Assembly (NCBI RefSeq): GCF_041821025.1
Contig: NZ_JBGUAY010000001.1
Span: 310,001-374,000 of the forward strand
Direction of reading: 5' to 3'
DNA length: 64,000 nt
DNA from: Egicoccus sp. AB-alg6-2
GTDB taxonomy: Bacteria > Actinomycetota > Nitriliruptoria > Nitriliruptorales > Nitriliruptoraceae
Below the pieces are notes generated by a model. The model worked only from the letters and a program-made list of their open reading frames with translations. It was not told the origin of the DNA and did not search any database. Made by a program: the position numbers and the translations under genes. Shown piece after piece: positions 12,980 through 25,276 of the stretch. The stretch's first letter is position 1, and every line of letters begins with the position of its first letter.

Positions 12980-14662
12980 TCAGCGTGCGAGCTGGTCGAA
13001 GTAGTCCCGCACGAGGTCGCGACGTCCCACGGGGAAGCCGGGACGCTCGATCGTGCGGGTGGCGAGGTCGCGGTAGGTACCGAGGACGTCGAGGTAGGGC
13101 ACGAGCGCGTCACTGACCTCGCCGGGCCCGAGCCCCTTGCCCACCTGGGCGTCGGGACCGACGCCGGAGTCCTGGCCGCCGAGGTGCCACTCGTCGTCCT
13201 CGCCACCGACCCGCGGTGGCGCGAAGACGGTGTCGAGCTCCGGCCCGTCGCCGTGGGCGCCCTGACCGGTGGGGTCCTGGACCTGGCCGTTGCCGGTCAT
13301 GCCGTCGCCGGGCTGGCCACCCGGCCCACCCTGGCCCCCACCGCCGCCACCGCCCTGTCCCTGGCCTTGTCCCTGGCCTTGTCCCTGGCCTTGTCCCTGG
13401 CCTTGTCCCTGGCCTTGTCCCTGGCCTTGCCCTTCGCCTTGCCCTTGGCCCTGCCCTTGCCCTTGCCCTTGGCCCTGTCCCTGTCCTTGGCCTTGTCCTT
13501 GTCCCTGCCCTTGCCCCTGGCCGCGCGCGGCGTCCCGCAGGTTGCCCTGGGCCTGCCCGAGCACCCCGTCGGTCGCCTCCAGGGCGCCCTGACCGGCCGC
13601 CGATGCGACCGCGGACCCGACGGCGCCCGACGCGGACGAGATCGCACCGCCGGCGGCGACCTGGTCGCCGGCGTCGAGGGCCTCGGCCGCGTCCGCGAGG
13701 GCGTCGGCGATCTCGGGTTGGCCGGCGGCGATGGCTTCGGAGAGTTCCCTCAGGCGGTCGGCGAGGGCCCCCGGGTCCGGCACGTCGCCGGCGGCGAGTG
13801 CACCCGCGAGGGCGTCGAGCTGCGCACGGACCGAGTCCCCGGCGGCCAGCGGCTCGCGGCCGAGCTCCCGTGCGAGACCGTCGAGGGCGGCCCGTTGCCC
13901 GTTGCGGTCGGGGTCGAGTTCGCGGGCCAGCTCGGCGCGCGCCGCGGCCAGCTCCTCCAGCGCCTGCTCCAGGGTGCGGCCGTCGAGCTGCTCGGCGACC
14001 TCCTGCAGGCGCTCGGCCGCCGCCGCACCCGGCTCGCCCAACTCGGCGAGCTCGTCGGCGGCCCGTTCCAGGTCCTCGGTGACGCGCTCGACGGCGGCGG
14101 CCTCGCGCGCACGCCGATCGCGCTCACCGGCGTGGGGGTCGGGCGCGGCGGCCAGCGCGGCCACGGCGAGCACCAGCACGAGGGCGGCGACCAGCCACCG
14201 TCCCTCGGGGCGATGGGCGGGAGGCAGCGTGCGCACGCCCGCGGCGGCGGCGTCGGCCTCGACGAGTTGTCGTCGCGCCAGCCCGTCGAGACCTCCGCGT
14301 TCCTGTCCGACGGTGCGCAGCTCCAGGGCCGTCCGGTAGCGGTCCTTGGCGCCCAGGAGGCCGTCGACGGCGGCGGCGGCGACCTCGCCCGGGACCGGGC
14401 GCAGCGCAACCGCGGCCAGCGCGACGACGACGGCGGCCGCACAACCGGCGAGCACGAGCGTGGTCACCGGTGGCAACAGCACCAACCAGGCGAGCAGGCT
14501 CCAGACGAGGGCGACACCGGCTCCGACCGTGACGACCGGCCCGACCCGGTCGGCCAGCCGCACCCGCCGGATCCGGCGGCGGCCGCGCGCGACCAGGGCG
14601 TCCAGGCCGGGGGTCCGCGGAACGGGAAGGGTGTCGTCACGGACGGTCGTCGGTGTGCGCAT
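12980..14662 (-). CDS. membrane protein with long Gly-Gln repeat tract (DUF4175-like)
   Basis: 560 residues from ATG 14662, one base after the upstream stop. It has two N-terminal hydrophobic helices (VVTVGAGVALVWSLLAWLVLL and LVLAGCAAAVVVALAAVAL) and a cytoplasmic stretch. A further helix follows (RWLVAALVLVLAVAALAA). Next comes an Ala/Glu/Leu-rich helical region likely to be coiled coil (residues ~185-400). A nearly pure (Gly-Gln)n tract of over 50 residues then leads to a Gly-rich linker and a folded-looking C-terminal end (EVSDALVPYLDVLGTYRDLATRTIERPGFP). The layout recalls DUF4175-type proteins found near MoxR/vWA genes, but that assignment is tentative. Length variation of the tract is likely by slippage. 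Confidence 0.75.
   Translation of the reverse strand: MRTPTTVRDDTLPVPRTPGLDALVARGRRRIRRVRLADRVGPVVTVGAGVALVWSLLAWLVLLPPVTTLVLAGCAAAVVVALAAVALRPVPGEVAAAAVDGLLGAKDRYRTALELRTVGQERGGLDGLARRQLVEADAAAAGVRTLPPAHRPEGRWLVAALVLVLAVAALAAAPDPHAGERDRRAREAAAVERVTEDLERAADELAELGEPGAAAAERLQEVAEQLDGRTLEQALEELAAARAELARELDPDRNGQRAALDGLARELGREPLAAGDSVRAQLDALAGALAAGDVPDPGALADRLRELSEAIAAGQPEIADALADAAEALDAGDQVAAGGAISSASGAVGSAVASAAGQGALEATDGVLGQAQGNLRDAARGQGQGQGQGQGQGQGQGQGQGQGQGQGQGEGQGQGQGQGQGQGQGQGQGQGQGQGQGGGGGGGQGGPGGQPGDGMTGNGQVQDPTGQGAHGDGPELDTVFAPPRVGGEDDEWHLGGQDSGVGPDAQVGKGLGPGEVSDALVPYLDVLGTYRDLATRTIERPGFPVGRRDLVRDYFDQLAR
13354..13522. repeat. Gly-Gln-encoding degenerate hexanucleotide/12-bp tandem repeat
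   Basis: A run of GGNCAR hexamers on the minus strand, including several perfect 12-bp units (seen on the plus strand as ccctggccttgt). It encodes alternating Gly and Gln with a single Gln-to-Glu change. Plus-strand readings through it give artificial PWPC and LVPG repeats. Synonymous variation in the second half suggests that the protein repeat, not just the DNA repeat, is maintained. Confidence 0.9.
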
Positions 14663-14663
14663 G

Positions 14664-15653
14664 TCAGGCCTCCCGGACGCCGTCGCGCGGCCCCAGCGCC
14701 CGCGTCGCCGACCACAGCGCGAGGCCGCCGAGCACCGCGTAGACCGCCAGCGTGATGGGCCACACGGTCGGACGGGCCGGCTCGACGAGATCGCCCTCGA
14801 CGAACCCGCCGCCGAACGCGGGGTCGACCATGACGCCACCGCCGATGCCGACCCCACCGAAGGCCGCGTCGCCCGGCAGTGCGGCCGCGAACGGGGTCAA
14901 CACCGAGGGCAGGCCGCCCGCGAAGGAGGACCGCGTCGACGACCCCGTCGCGTCGGCGAGCGCGTAGAACGGGTTGGCGTACATGGCGACGGGCCGGTAA
15001 CCCTCGCGCAGGTCGAAGTCCCGGGCGGCGAACTCCGCGAACGCGGCGATCAGCGTGCCGATGACCAGGCACAGCACCAGGCCGTAGGTGAGCACGACCG
15101 CTCCGGTGGTGCGTCGGGTCCTGGCGGACACGCCGATCGCCATCGCCGCGATGCAGATCGCGACGACCAGCACCACCAGCAGCCCCTTCAGCAGGTCGCC
15201 CAGCGTCGCACCGCCCAGCACGAACGCGGTCGCGGCGAGCGGGGCCGTCACCAGCACCAGCAGCACGGTCCAGGCCGACGAGGCGCCGAGCTTGCCGAGC
15301 ACGATGCCCCACGGGCGCAGCAAGGTGATCCGCAGCAGTCCCAGGGTGCGTCGCTCGCGCTCCCCGGCCAGTTGCGCCGCCGCGTATCCCGGCGCCACGA
15401 ACAGGACCAGTCCGAGCACCCCGGCGAGCAGGTTCTCGAGCAGGAAGCGGCCGAGGACCGGTCCGCTCGCGGTGACCGGCGCCCATCCGTTCATGGCCTG
15501 CTGTTCGAGGTAGCTGGTCGCCAGCCATCGTGCCAGCAGCAGCAGTCCGCCCAGCAGGCCGAGATAGGCGGTCAGTACGACCGCCGCCCGCGGCCCACGC
15601 CAGCGCTCGAGCAACTCGCGGCGCAGCACCGGGTTGAGCGTCGGCGCCCTCAT
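14664..15653 (-). CDS. ABC-2-type transporter permease
   Basis: 329 residues with six or more hydrophobic segments. It starts with the short cytoplasmic lead MRAPTLNPVLRRELLERWRGPRA-like typical of ABC-2 permeases of the NatB/GldF type. The motif GERERRTLGLLRITLLRPWGIVLGK in the first cytoplasmic loop is the expected coupling region (a TLDLLLLTPLSP-like sequence). A Gly-rich extracytoplasmic loop (FGGVGIGGG) lies before the last helix. The ATPase gene is 19 bases upstream and is surely its partner. The substrate is unknown; the operon context suggests an envelope component rather than a nutrient. Confidence 0.88.
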   Translation of the reverse strand: MRAPTLNPVLRRELLERWRGPRAAVVLTAYLGLLGGLLLLARWLATSYLEQQAMNGWAPVTASGPVLGRFLLENLLAGVLGLVLFVAPGYAAAQLAGERERRTLGLLRITLLRPWGIVLGKLGASSAWTVLLVLVTAPLAATAFVLGGATLGDLLKGLLVVLVVAICIAAMAIGVSARTRRTTGAVVLTYGLVLCLVIGTLIAAFAEFAARDFDLREGYRPVAMYANPFYALADATGSSTRSSFAGGLPSVLTPFAAALPGDAAFGGVGIGGGVMVDPAFGGGFVEGDLVEPARPTVWPITLAVYAVLGGLALWSATRALGPRDGVREA

Positions 15654-22512: not shown

Positions 22513-22926
22513 TCAGGCCACGTTGGTGCGTCGCGTGCGAGGGATCCCGGCCTGCTTGAGGACGGCGGCAGGAACGCCCGCTTCCCGCCATGCGGTGTAG
22601 GTGATGCCCTTGCGTTCGGAGTATTCGGCGGCGGATTCGACGAAGCCCTTTTCGAGCGTCTCGAGGTCGACGTCCTCGTCCATACCGACGAGGCGTTCTT
22701 CGAGGTCGAGGCGGCGCTGGATGAGATCGACCCGCTTCGCCGGGTTCGGTTCGGCGTCGATCTTCTGCTGGACCTCGTCGATGCGCGCCTTGACCGTCTC
22801 GCTGTCCATGCGCCGGCCCGGCTTGCGGTCCTGCTCCAACGCCGCGAGATAGTCGCGAACGGCACGACCCTGTTCGCGCCCCTTGGCGAGCGCTGCCTTG
22901 TGGTCGTCACTCATCTTGCGTGCCAT
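22513..22926 (-). CDS. conserved actinobacterial protein of unknown function
   Basis: 137 residues, strongly charged. It starts ARKMSDDHKAALAKGREQGR, has a central helical part probably forming a coiled coil (KARIDEVQQKIDAEPNPAKRVDLIQRRLDLEERL) and ends with the well-conserved motif KGITYTAWREAGVPAAVLKQAGI. I recognise this as a widespread uncharacterised actinobacterial family, found in Streptomyces among others. The basic N-terminus and the short helix-turn-helix-like C-terminal motif (GVPAAVLKQAGI) would be compatible with nucleic-acid binding, but that is only an inference. Confidence 0.75.
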   Translation of the reverse strand: MARKMSDDHKAALAKGREQGRAVRDYLAALEQDRKPGRRMDSETVKARIDEVQQKIDAEPNPAKRVDLIQRRLDLEERLVGMDEDVDLETLEKGFVESAAEYSERKGITYTAWREAGVPAAVLKQAGIPRTRRTNVA

Positions 22927-22988: not shown

Positions 22989-24785
22989 TCAGCTGATCAG
23001 GTCCCGAGCCGGCGCTCCATGCATCGGGATGGCGCTCGGGAGACGCAGGACGAACTTGCTTCCCGTGGCGCCAGCGGCATCTTCGAGTTCGAGACTGCCG
23101 TGCATCGCCTGCGCCAGCCGGCGGGCGATGAACAGCCCCAGACCGACACCGCCGGTGCGCATCGTCAGCGGATCCTCGAGGCGATGGAACTGCTCGAAGA
23201 CGTGCTCGCGATGCTCCCGTGGGATGCCCGGACCCGAGTCGATGACGCGAATGCAGATGTCGTCGTCGAGCTGTTCGAGCGTCACCTCGACCGGCGTGTC
23301 CTCGGGTGAATAGCGGCAGGCGTTGTCGACCAGCGCGTTGACGATCTGCCGGGTGCGCTCGGGGTCGGCGAGGGCTTCTCCTGTGCCCGGTGCGGCCGTA
23401 AAGGCGAGCGTTCGGGTCGGTTCTCGGTCGGCGAAGGAGGCGACGGTGGCCTCGAGCACGGGCTGCAGGTCGACCGGTGCCGGGTGCACCAGATCGTCGA
23501 GGTCGTGTTGGTCCAACCGGGTGACCAGCAGCAGGTCCTCGACCACCGCGGCGAGGTGGTCGGAACGTTCGACGATGTGTTCGAGTGCATCCTGTCGGCT
23601 GGACGCATCGAGTTGGTCGCCCTTGCGCAGGAGCACGGAGGCAAAGCCGCGGATGGGCGTCAATGGCGTGCGCAGTTCGTGCGACACCCTCGCCACGAAG
23701 TCGCCACGCAGCCGCTCGAGTTCGCGCTGCCGTGAGACGTCACGGACGACGATCACGTCGCCGATGCAGCGGCCCCGGTCGTCGAAGATGAGCGAGTGGT
23801 TCTCGCGCACCGCATGCGCGCGGCCGTCGACATGACGGATCCGGGCGTCGAGGGCGCGATGCTGCGCGCCGCGATGGGCGCTGTCGATGAGCCAGCGCCC
23901 CGTGACGCGGGTCTCGCCCTCGCGCAGGGACTCGGTCAGGACGCGCGACACCGGACGGGACACCACCCGCTCGGCGGAGAGCCCGGTGAGCTCCTCCATG
24001 GCCGTGTTCCAGACCTGGATCGTCCCGTCACGGTCGAGCAGGATGATGCCGTCGGTCGTGCCGTCGACGACCCGGGTCAGGCGGTCGCGGTCCACACGGA
24101 CGCGCCCGAGCAGGTCGGCGGTGCGGCGGGCACCACGGGCGGCCAGGTAGACCGCCGCGGCGGGGACGAGGACGAAGCCGGCCAGCGCCGGCTCGAGGAC
24201 GAGCAGTGCGGCCAGCACGACCCCGATCGCGGCGGTGCCGAGCGAGAAGCTTGCCGAGAGCGGGAGCTGCTCGACCAGGCCCTCCCGGGCGTTCGGCTCC
24301 GCGATCGACAGCAGGCCGAGCATGGCGACGGCGTTGACGGCCACGTAGACGGCCATCCCCAGCAGGGCGAACAACACCGGCCGCCCGTTGACCAATGGAC
24401 CGATCGGGGGTGCGAAGTGCACGATGGTGGCCGCCAGCGCGGCGCCCACCATGGCCTGGGCGGTGTTGAAGCTGACCTTGATGAGGTCGGGGACGCGCGA
24501 GGCCTGTCCGGCCATCATGCCAAGCCCCGTCGCCACGACGGCTTCGGTGGGGGCGACCAGGAGCAGGCCGGCCGTGATGGCGACCTCGACGAGGGTGATG
24601 GCGACGTCGGAGTGCTCGAAGGTGAAGCGCAGCTCCACGCGTTCGGCGACGGCGACGCCGACCACCAGCGCGAACAGCGGCACGAAGTCCGGCGCCGCGG
24701 CATTCGTGAGCACGATGACGCCGCCGAGGGACGCGACCCCCAGCAGGACGCAGAACGCGACGTAGCGCTCGAGCTTGGCGCTGAT
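22989..24785 (-). CDS. multi-pass membrane sensor histidine kinase with PAS domain
   Basis: About 598 residues. It has an N-terminal integral membrane sensor of seven to nine hydrophobic segments (from YVAFCVLLGVASLGGVIVLT to FVLVPAAAVYLAARG), then a PAS domain (DGTTDGIILLDRDGTIQVWN). HisKA carries the phospho-acceptor in SHELRTPLTPIRGF near residue 371, and HATPase_c has NALVDNACRYSP, DSGPGIP and GGVGLGL. No ATG, GTG or TTG exists in frame between the upstream repeat protein and residue 25 of this model. The only well-placed ribosome site, GAGGGG, is 8 bases before an ATC at 24785. Otherwise GTG 24713 would remove part of the first helix. No response regulator gene is adjacent. It probably shares a transcript with the GISWT protein 107 bases upstream. 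Confidence 0.85.
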   Translation of the reverse strand: MSAKLERYVAFCVLLGVASLGGVIVLTNAAAPDFVPLFALVVGVAVAERVELRFTFEHSDVAITLVEVAITAGLLLVAPTEAVVATGLGMMAGQASRVPDLIKVSFNTAQAMVGAALAATIVHFAPPIGPLVNGRPVLFALLGMAVYVAVNAVAMLGLLSIAEPNAREGLVEQLPLSASFSLGTAAIGVVLAALLVLEPALAGFVLVPAAAVYLAARGARRTADLLGRVRVDRDRLTRVVDGTTDGIILLDRDGTIQVWNTAMEELTGLSAERVVSRPVSRVLTESLREGETRVTGRWLIDSAHRGAQHRALDARIRHVDGRAHAVRENHSLIFDDRGRCIGDVIVVRDVSRQRELERLRGDFVARVSHELRTPLTPIRGFASVLLRKGDQLDASSRQDALEHIVERSDHLAAVVEDLLLVTRLDQHDLDDLVHPAPVDLQPVLEATVASFADREPTRTLAFTAAPGTGEALADPERTRQIVNALVDNACRYSPEDTPVEVTLEQLDDDICIRVIDSGPGIPREHREHVFEQFHRLEDPLTMRTGGVGLGLFIARRLAQAMHGSLELEDAAGATGSKFVLRLPSAIPMHGAPARDLIS

Positions 24786-24892
24786 GCGGACGGCCCCTCG
24801 CGACTGGCGTGGTCTCAGATACGAACCGACCGGCCCACCCCGTGGGATGTGACCGGCCGGTACTTCGGTGTTGCGGTGGCTTGGTGCGTCGA

Positions 24893-25276
24893 TCAGGTCC
24901 AGCTGATGCCGCGCGTCCAGCTGATGCCGGGTGCGGCGGTCCAGCTGATGCCACGGGTCCAGCTGATGCCGGGTGCGGCGGTCCAGCTGATGCCGCGAGC
25001 GTTGGTCCAGCTGATGCCCTGCGCGGCGGTCCAGCTGATGCCACGCGTCCAGCTGATACCGGGTGCGGCGGTCCAGCTGATGCCACGGGCGCTGGTCCAG
25101 CTGATGCCCTGTGCGGCGAGTTGCGCGCCGCTGCTGGTCCAGCTGATGCCGTTGGGTGCCGCCGCGACCTCGTCGGCGGCGCTGGCGCCGATCCCGGCCA
25201 GCATGCTGCCGGCGAGTGCAGCGATGACGACGAGTGCACGCCAGCGGACGACCCGAGTTCCGTTGCGACGATCCAT
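24893..25276 (-). CDS. secreted GISWT-pentapeptide repeat protein
   Basis: 127 residues from ATG 25276, with AAGGAG six bases upstream. A Sec signal peptide (RRNGTRVVRWR then ALVVIAALAGSMLAGIGASA) is followed by about 94 residues containing eleven exact copies of GISWT, starting at residues 43, 57, 65, 73, 79, 87, 95, 103, 109, 117 and 123. The linkers are regular: mostly three residues (SAR, AAP, AAQ, NAR) or a single Arg. The last copy is the C-terminus itself. The mature protein has eleven tryptophans and no cysteine. I do not recognise a named family, although Trp-rich GTSW-type repeats occur at the ends of some actinobacterial exoproteins. It precedes a membrane histidine kinase, so a signal or surface role is conceivable but unproven. 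Confidence 0.8.
   Translation of the reverse strand: MDRRNGTRVVRWRALVVIAALAGSMLAGIGASAADEVAAAPNGISWTSSGAQLAAQGISWTSARGISWTAAPGISWTRGISWTAAQGISWTNARGISWTAAPGISWTRGISWTAAPGISWTRGISWT
24896..25150. repeat. DNA repeats encoding GISWT
   Basis: Eleven copies of a 15-bp core (plus strand ggtccagctgatgcc, with slight changes at the ends), spaced by 3, 9 or 27 bases. The Gly-Ile-Ser-Trp codons are nearly invariant, one copy using ATA-like gatacc on the plus strand. This suggests recent expansion or gene conversion. The unequal but triplet-sized spacers and intact reading frame show it is coding, not a CRISPR array. Confidence 0.92.

Follow-up and report, generated by a model that had tools for sequence, protein, structure and literature searches.

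An exported GISWT-repeat protein encoded beside a sensor histidine kinase in Egicoccus: a candidate signalling partner of the kinase

The GISWT gene and its genomic neighbourhood

The stretch of Egicoccus sp. AB-alg6-2 DNA analyzed here (64,000 nucleotides, hereafter the window) carries a minus-strand open reading frame of 127 codons, whose translation begins with MDRRNGTRVVRWRALVVIAALAGSMLAGIGASA, continues with ADEVAAAPNGISWT and ends in GISWT (Table 1). The product starts with a Sec signal peptide (residues 1–33, ALVVIAALAGSMLAGIGASA followed by AD), and cleavage at the likely signal-peptidase site, ASA/AD, would leave about 94 amino acids. A first GISWT unit is followed by a 9-residue spacer (SSGAQLAAQ) and by an array of ten further units extending to the C-terminus, which is formed by the last of the eleven exact copies. 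All other linkers are three residues or one residue long, the one-residue linker being Arg in every case, and the resulting tryptophan-to-tryptophan spacings (6, 8 and 14) are all even. The earlier note, made from the sequence alone, had described the signal peptide, the eleven exact units and the C-terminal end of the repeat correctly, and its view of an exported protein built from repeats is likewise supported.

Table 1. Features of the locus in window coordinates
Feature	Position	Strand	Basis or description
Tail-only exported protein	24893..25276	(-)	Reading frame preceded by an AAGGAG RBS; G002 and G003 orthologues
Sensor histidine kinase: membrane domain, PAS, HisKA, HATPase_c	22989..24785	(-)	Domain matches
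Kinase N-terminal membrane domain, conserved partner	24102..24785	(-)	Predicted ECF S-component fold
137-aa conserved protein, third gene of the block	22513..22926	(-)	Four genomes
Intergenic hairpin between tail gene and kinase gene	24825..24861	(-)	11-bp stem, 1-nt bulge, 5-bp stem

The ribosome-binding site lies 6 nt 5' of the ATG, and two orthologues from other members of the genus share the layout, in which the signal peptide is followed by a single unit, a spacer of 9–17 residues and then the array: that of genome G003 has 142 aa, 72% identity and 13 GISWT/GFSWT units, and that of G002 has 159 aa, 58% identity and 13 GISW/GITW units, mostly in the form GISWVG. The leader region of the gene displays a dN/dS of ~0.2–0.33, close to that of the neighbouring kinase gene (0.22–0.27), which points to purifying selection on the leader. 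Since ribosome-binding site, same-layout orthologues and leader dN/dS all agree, the reading frame is a real gene and not a chance one. At the DNA level, only 3 of the 55 codons of the repeat units differ, all synonymously; copies within one gene are thus being homogenised, and their exactness stems partly from recent homogenisation and not from selection on each residue.

The GISWT protein has no match above cut-off in Pfam or NCBIfam. In the search that gave its orthologues, the many weak matches at E above 0.001 were ignored as products of six-frame composition. Two identities were rejected: that of a pentapeptide-repeat protein, since the pentapeptide repeat model gave no Pfam match at E up to 1 and the units recur every 6, 8 or 14 residues without an unbroken 5-residue period, and that of an S8 protease, since the 127-aa protein gave no S8 match and the catalytic domain is not present. 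Structure prediction of the repeat, which the earlier note had proposed, placed the units in beta strands (AlphaFold, all-beta); the model is of low confidence (mean pLDDT 56) and does not define a reliable fold.

The GISWT gene is located ~100 nt upstream of a histidine kinase gene on the same strand, and this adjacent sensor kinase is the decisive feature that the earlier note missed. Tail gene, kinase gene and a gene for a 137-aa protein form a block present in the window, G002, G003 and G010, the last representing another genus. The 137-aa protein, encoded downstream of the pair, is 68–88% identical in these four genomes of two genera and matches no NCBIfam model, nor any Pfam model above cut-off; a CitMHS/TrkA_C transporter gene lies upstream. 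Neither of the two flanking genes was recognised as a response regulator gene, and neither a leader peptidase or exporter gene of the AgrB or ComA type nor a dedicated processing protease gene was seen beside it. At 24783–24785 (minus strand), where the kinase homologues of G002 and G010 begin with GTG, an in-frame ATC is found in both the window and G003, with no ATG, GTG or TTG nearby; the kinase start given in Table 1 is a tentative one.

The intergenic hairpin, for which we propose a role as transcript stabiliser or attenuator, has a z-score of -4.1 in the window, -4.7 in G003 and -3.1 in G002. The window value falls to -0.7 when a longer intergenic region is folded, and low z-scores are not general across all tail–kinase pairs; for these two reasons the hairpin was not used as a defining feature of the pair, and the evidence that it might raise production of the tail above that of the kinase is weak. 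Elsewhere in the window, a predicted membrane protein (reading frame 12980–14857, minus strand) contains a long run of Gly-Gln dipeptides encoded by a 12-bp tandem repeat at 13352–13522.

The kinase sensor domain and its tryptophan-tailed partners

The N-terminal domain (N-domain) of the kinase was modelled with high confidence (pLDDT 90, pTM 0.86). S-components, ECF complexes and the related NikM/CbiM fill the first 22 places of the VIA list (Z 10 to 15.3), the next unrelated fold following at Z 7.0, and Foldseek returned a probability of 1.00 for RibU. The domain is thus predicted to adopt the fold of ECF-transporter S-components, proteins that bind small ligands from outside. Within it, a beta hairpin (domain residues 51–64) would be the counterpart of the extracellular L1 gate, its placement on the extracellular side following from the cytoplasmic location of the kinase C-terminus. 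Despite a fold akin to that of RibU, ThiT, FolT and NikM (Z 12–15 over ~160 residues), the domain has only ~10% sequence identity to these proteins and is fused to a kinase or to other signalling output domains. No EcfA or EcfT genes were seen among the immediate neighbours of the window kinase, and, judged by this context, its sensor domain is not a transporter subunit.

The N-domain of the window kinase has no Pfam match. Pfam MASE9 (PF20972), likewise a membrane sensor domain of signalling proteins, is matched, if weakly, by 10 of 63 N-domain homologues at E up to 0.001, whereas the listed matches of the window kinase do not include it at this threshold; for MASE9, a pairing with tails was not found described.

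A direct search of genome contigs with the GISWT protein found no relatives, and the neighbouring kinase was therefore taken as anchor. With two successive alignments of its N-domain we searched 66 genomes belonging to the class and a 396-genome sample of the phylum, and the loci examined comprised the best-scoring matches of each search together with twenty further paralogues picked before their neighbours were seen. A gene for an exported protein with tryptophan motifs at or near its C-terminus lies directly upstream of the N-domain gene at 46 of 65 loci, and at 29 of the 32 loci scoring at least 120 bits; the tail stop codon is mostly positioned 26–178 nt before the N-domain. Twelve of the 46 tails are tail-only proteins, the window protein among them, and at least 32 sit on subtilases recognised by S8 signature motifs, with the D, H and S motifs kept where readable. 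The tails of these subtilases include GWRW, QTVRW, GVNWR, GRSWI, GTSWS, GAGWS and ARRWA, and in several members the array stops short of the exact C-terminus. The loosely similar GTSW-type tails mentioned in the earlier note find their match in the GTSWS tails of these N-domain-linked subtilases.

Two control sets drawn from the same class, one of the 30 best HisKA loci and one of the 30 best loci for S8, contained no genuine tryptophan tail, each yielding one antisense chance reading frame. The criterion applied here was based on repeats; it replaced a count of tryptophans (5 in the last 60 residues), which was too loose because shifted frames of GC-rich genes contain many tryptophans. In a reverse test we used a DNA pattern of six tryptophan codons at 5-codon spacing, which is also matched by out-of-frame GGN-type repeats, these being excluded by frame and GC3. 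Among the 17 in-frame tails of this period, 14 adjoin an N-domain gene; for the remaining three (L192, L193 and L196), no recognisable N-domain gene was found downstream within the stretch examined. The three exceptions are subtilases with repeat tails (GWGWN, GRSWV and GATWS, respectively), and at L196 the next gene encodes another subtilase. Conversely, the upstream tail is missing at 19 of the 65 N-domain loci, mostly low-scoring ones, and no tail is visible at the close relative L035 (G019). The pairing is strong, although not absolute in either direction. Two N-domain homologues without an upstream tail, L082 and L086, group together on the tree, and EAL-type regions at their sequence ends suggest a separate domain branch that has no tail partner.

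Variation and evolution of the tails

Tail-only relatives vary in motif and in copy number, which ranges from 1 to 13. The G010 protein is a small exported protein with two units, ending in TTQGLSWLGLSWL; the G015 tail consists of SGISWLGAIWT repeats and that of G045 of VRWN repeats, while those of G012 and G023 end in QAWSWFR and QGISWF, respectively. In G022, G011 and G027, the precursors have only ~42 aa, with a signal peptide and then a terminal AGW[VI]WIR, and their mature product would be a single peptide of ~12 residues (12–14). Tryptophan spacings in the relatives are 5, 6 and 11. Basic one-residue linkers (Arg or Lys) are found in G000 and G003, in part also in G002, and are absent from G015, G010, G012, G023 and the 42-aa precursors. 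The related records that carry names are MAGs of Nitriliruptoraceae.

On the N-domain tree, the window kinase and those of tail-only relatives form one group with 99% SH-aLRT support (nine tail-only members and one without a visible tail). Together with two other cases, the tail-only state accounts for 3 changes on the tree, and the S8-fused state is found in the other major branches; genomes such as G002 and G010 hold a tail-only pair plus an S8-tailed pair (L102 and L104). Although the root of the tree is not fixed, the simplest reading of this distribution is that the protease was lost and the tail kept. In all these arrangements it is the tail, and not the protease, that is the constant element next to the sensor.

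Similarity of tail motifs rises with N-domain identity (Mantel r 0.16, reached in 3 of 2000 permutations), from a mean of 0.20 below 25% identity to 0.67 above 60%, a correlation that is weak and partly reflects shared ancestry. The paralogous pairs of G008 bear different motifs (GRSWI, GKSWAG, GNQWS, KARWY and GNTWY), each largely uniform inside its own array, as expected for insulated pairs.

A candidate ligand for the adjacent sensor kinase

Overall, these results identify the repeat protein as a pared-down form of the exported partner in a widespread pairing of two genes, and suggest a model in which this pairing serves signalling. The GISWT protein would leave the cell via Sec and display repeated Gly-x-Ser-Trp motifs outside, where the S-component-like domain of the downstream kinase would recognise them and set kinase activity. 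In most relatives, the same kind of tail forms the C-terminal portion of secreted S8 subtilases; in the window, the protease is absent and the tail alone remains as a multivalent array, whereas in one related genus a single mature peptide of 12–14 residues would act in a manner resembling a peptide pheromone. Multiplicity of the motif could provide avidity or dose, and for the shortest members signal peptidase alone may plausibly release the short tryptophan peptide. The chief reason to think that the sensor recognises the tail itself is that the tail persists beside it where the protease does not. On this evidence, we give about an even chance to the exported motif acting on the adjacent kinase from outside, as its ligand or partner; binding of tail to sensor, the signal output and any role in sensing cell density or self are steps that we infer from it.

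The pair could instead be a regulator and its target, the kinase controlling a tailed protein whose job lies outside signalling (adhesion, matrix, substrate binding or protease docking) and whose tail never touches the kinase. This relation is frequent between neighbouring genes, most partners are proteases that plausibly serve a function of their own, and tryptophan-rich repeats are in general suited to binding carbohydrates or membrane interfaces. That the tail stays by the sensor without the protease, down to ~12 mature residues, that the membrane sensor domain is the constant partner and that no response regulator is recognised beside the window kinase make this account unlikely, if still a serious contender. 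A tail that docks its exported protein on the kinase as a fixed co-sensor and not as a diffusible signal, the subtilase reporting, for example, its substrate or cleavage state, and the tail-only forms being remnants or stabilising subunits, would agree with the predominance of S8 proteases with retained catalytic motifs and with the tight gene order. Such an accessory subunit is poorly compatible with copy numbers between 1 and 13, and the tail-only forms are still under selection, as judged by the leader dN/dS; we regard it as rather improbable.

The remaining alternatives concern the repeat protein by itself and were raised in the earlier note. Cleavage of a precursor at basic linkers to release GISWT peptides, which would be compatible with the tail acting as ligand if it were a processing step, draws on the recurrence of single Arg or Lys linkers in G000, G003 and, in part, G002. 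It does not hold as a general mechanism, given that G015, G010 and the single-copy members lack such linkers, and no dedicated processing protease gene was seen beside the window gene; we consider it distinctly improbable. For a self-assembling or wall-associated repeat protein unrelated to the kinase, we found no evidence: the predicted beta strands and the even tryptophan spacings are compatible with a one-faced sheet, whereas the model is of low confidence, the spacings of relatives differ, single-copy relatives exist and the linkage to the kinase is conserved. This possibility appears very remote.

Among known systems, the candidate ligand–sensor pair most recalls the peptide pheromone–kinase pairs AgrD–AgrC and ComC–ComD of Gram-positive bacteria, in that a small exported peptide gene adjoins the gene of a multi-span sensor kinase (in the window and in relatives), the peptide is variable and the kinase varies alongside, and the mature product may be as short as 12 residues. 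It differs from them in its Sec signal peptide, in place of an AgrB- or ComA-type leader, in its tryptophan-motif repeats with homologues fused to subtilases, and in a HisKA/HATPase_c kinase with a PAS and an S-component-like domain. Because neither a processing or export gene nor a response regulator is adjacent in the window, we did not file the pair as a peptide pheromone system. The S8 subtilases share the catalytic domain of most tail-bearing partners (nearest NCBIfam family mycosin TIGR03921, below cut-off); the window protein lacks this domain, and the repeat tail is not part of those families.

The statement in the earlier note that no free-standing GISWT protein had been described stands insofar as we found no description, whereas the protein is no orphan and represents the tail-only form of widespread tryptophan-repeat tails. 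We found no description of the tail–kinase pair in the open-access literature, where absence is not proof, and the exported tails found across the phylum are apparently an undescribed set. Whether on a subtilase, as a short peptide or as an array, these tails may constitute a phylum-wide, unrecognised signalling class of specific ligands for S-component-like kinases, with several insulated pairs in some genomes, a generalisation that we put forward tentatively and hold to fall somewhat short of an even chance.

To our knowledge, no ligand is known for most membrane sensor domains of the MASE type. Should the adjacent tail prove to be the ligand, neighbouring genes would encode signal and receptor together, and what the sensor senses would therefore become directly testable with synthetic peptides such as GSPLVAGWVWIR. 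The model would, if true, extend peptide signalling by a further route in actinobacterial lineages that have been little studied, connect secreted subtilases with sensor kinases and show a vitamin-uptake fold put to new use as a receptor.
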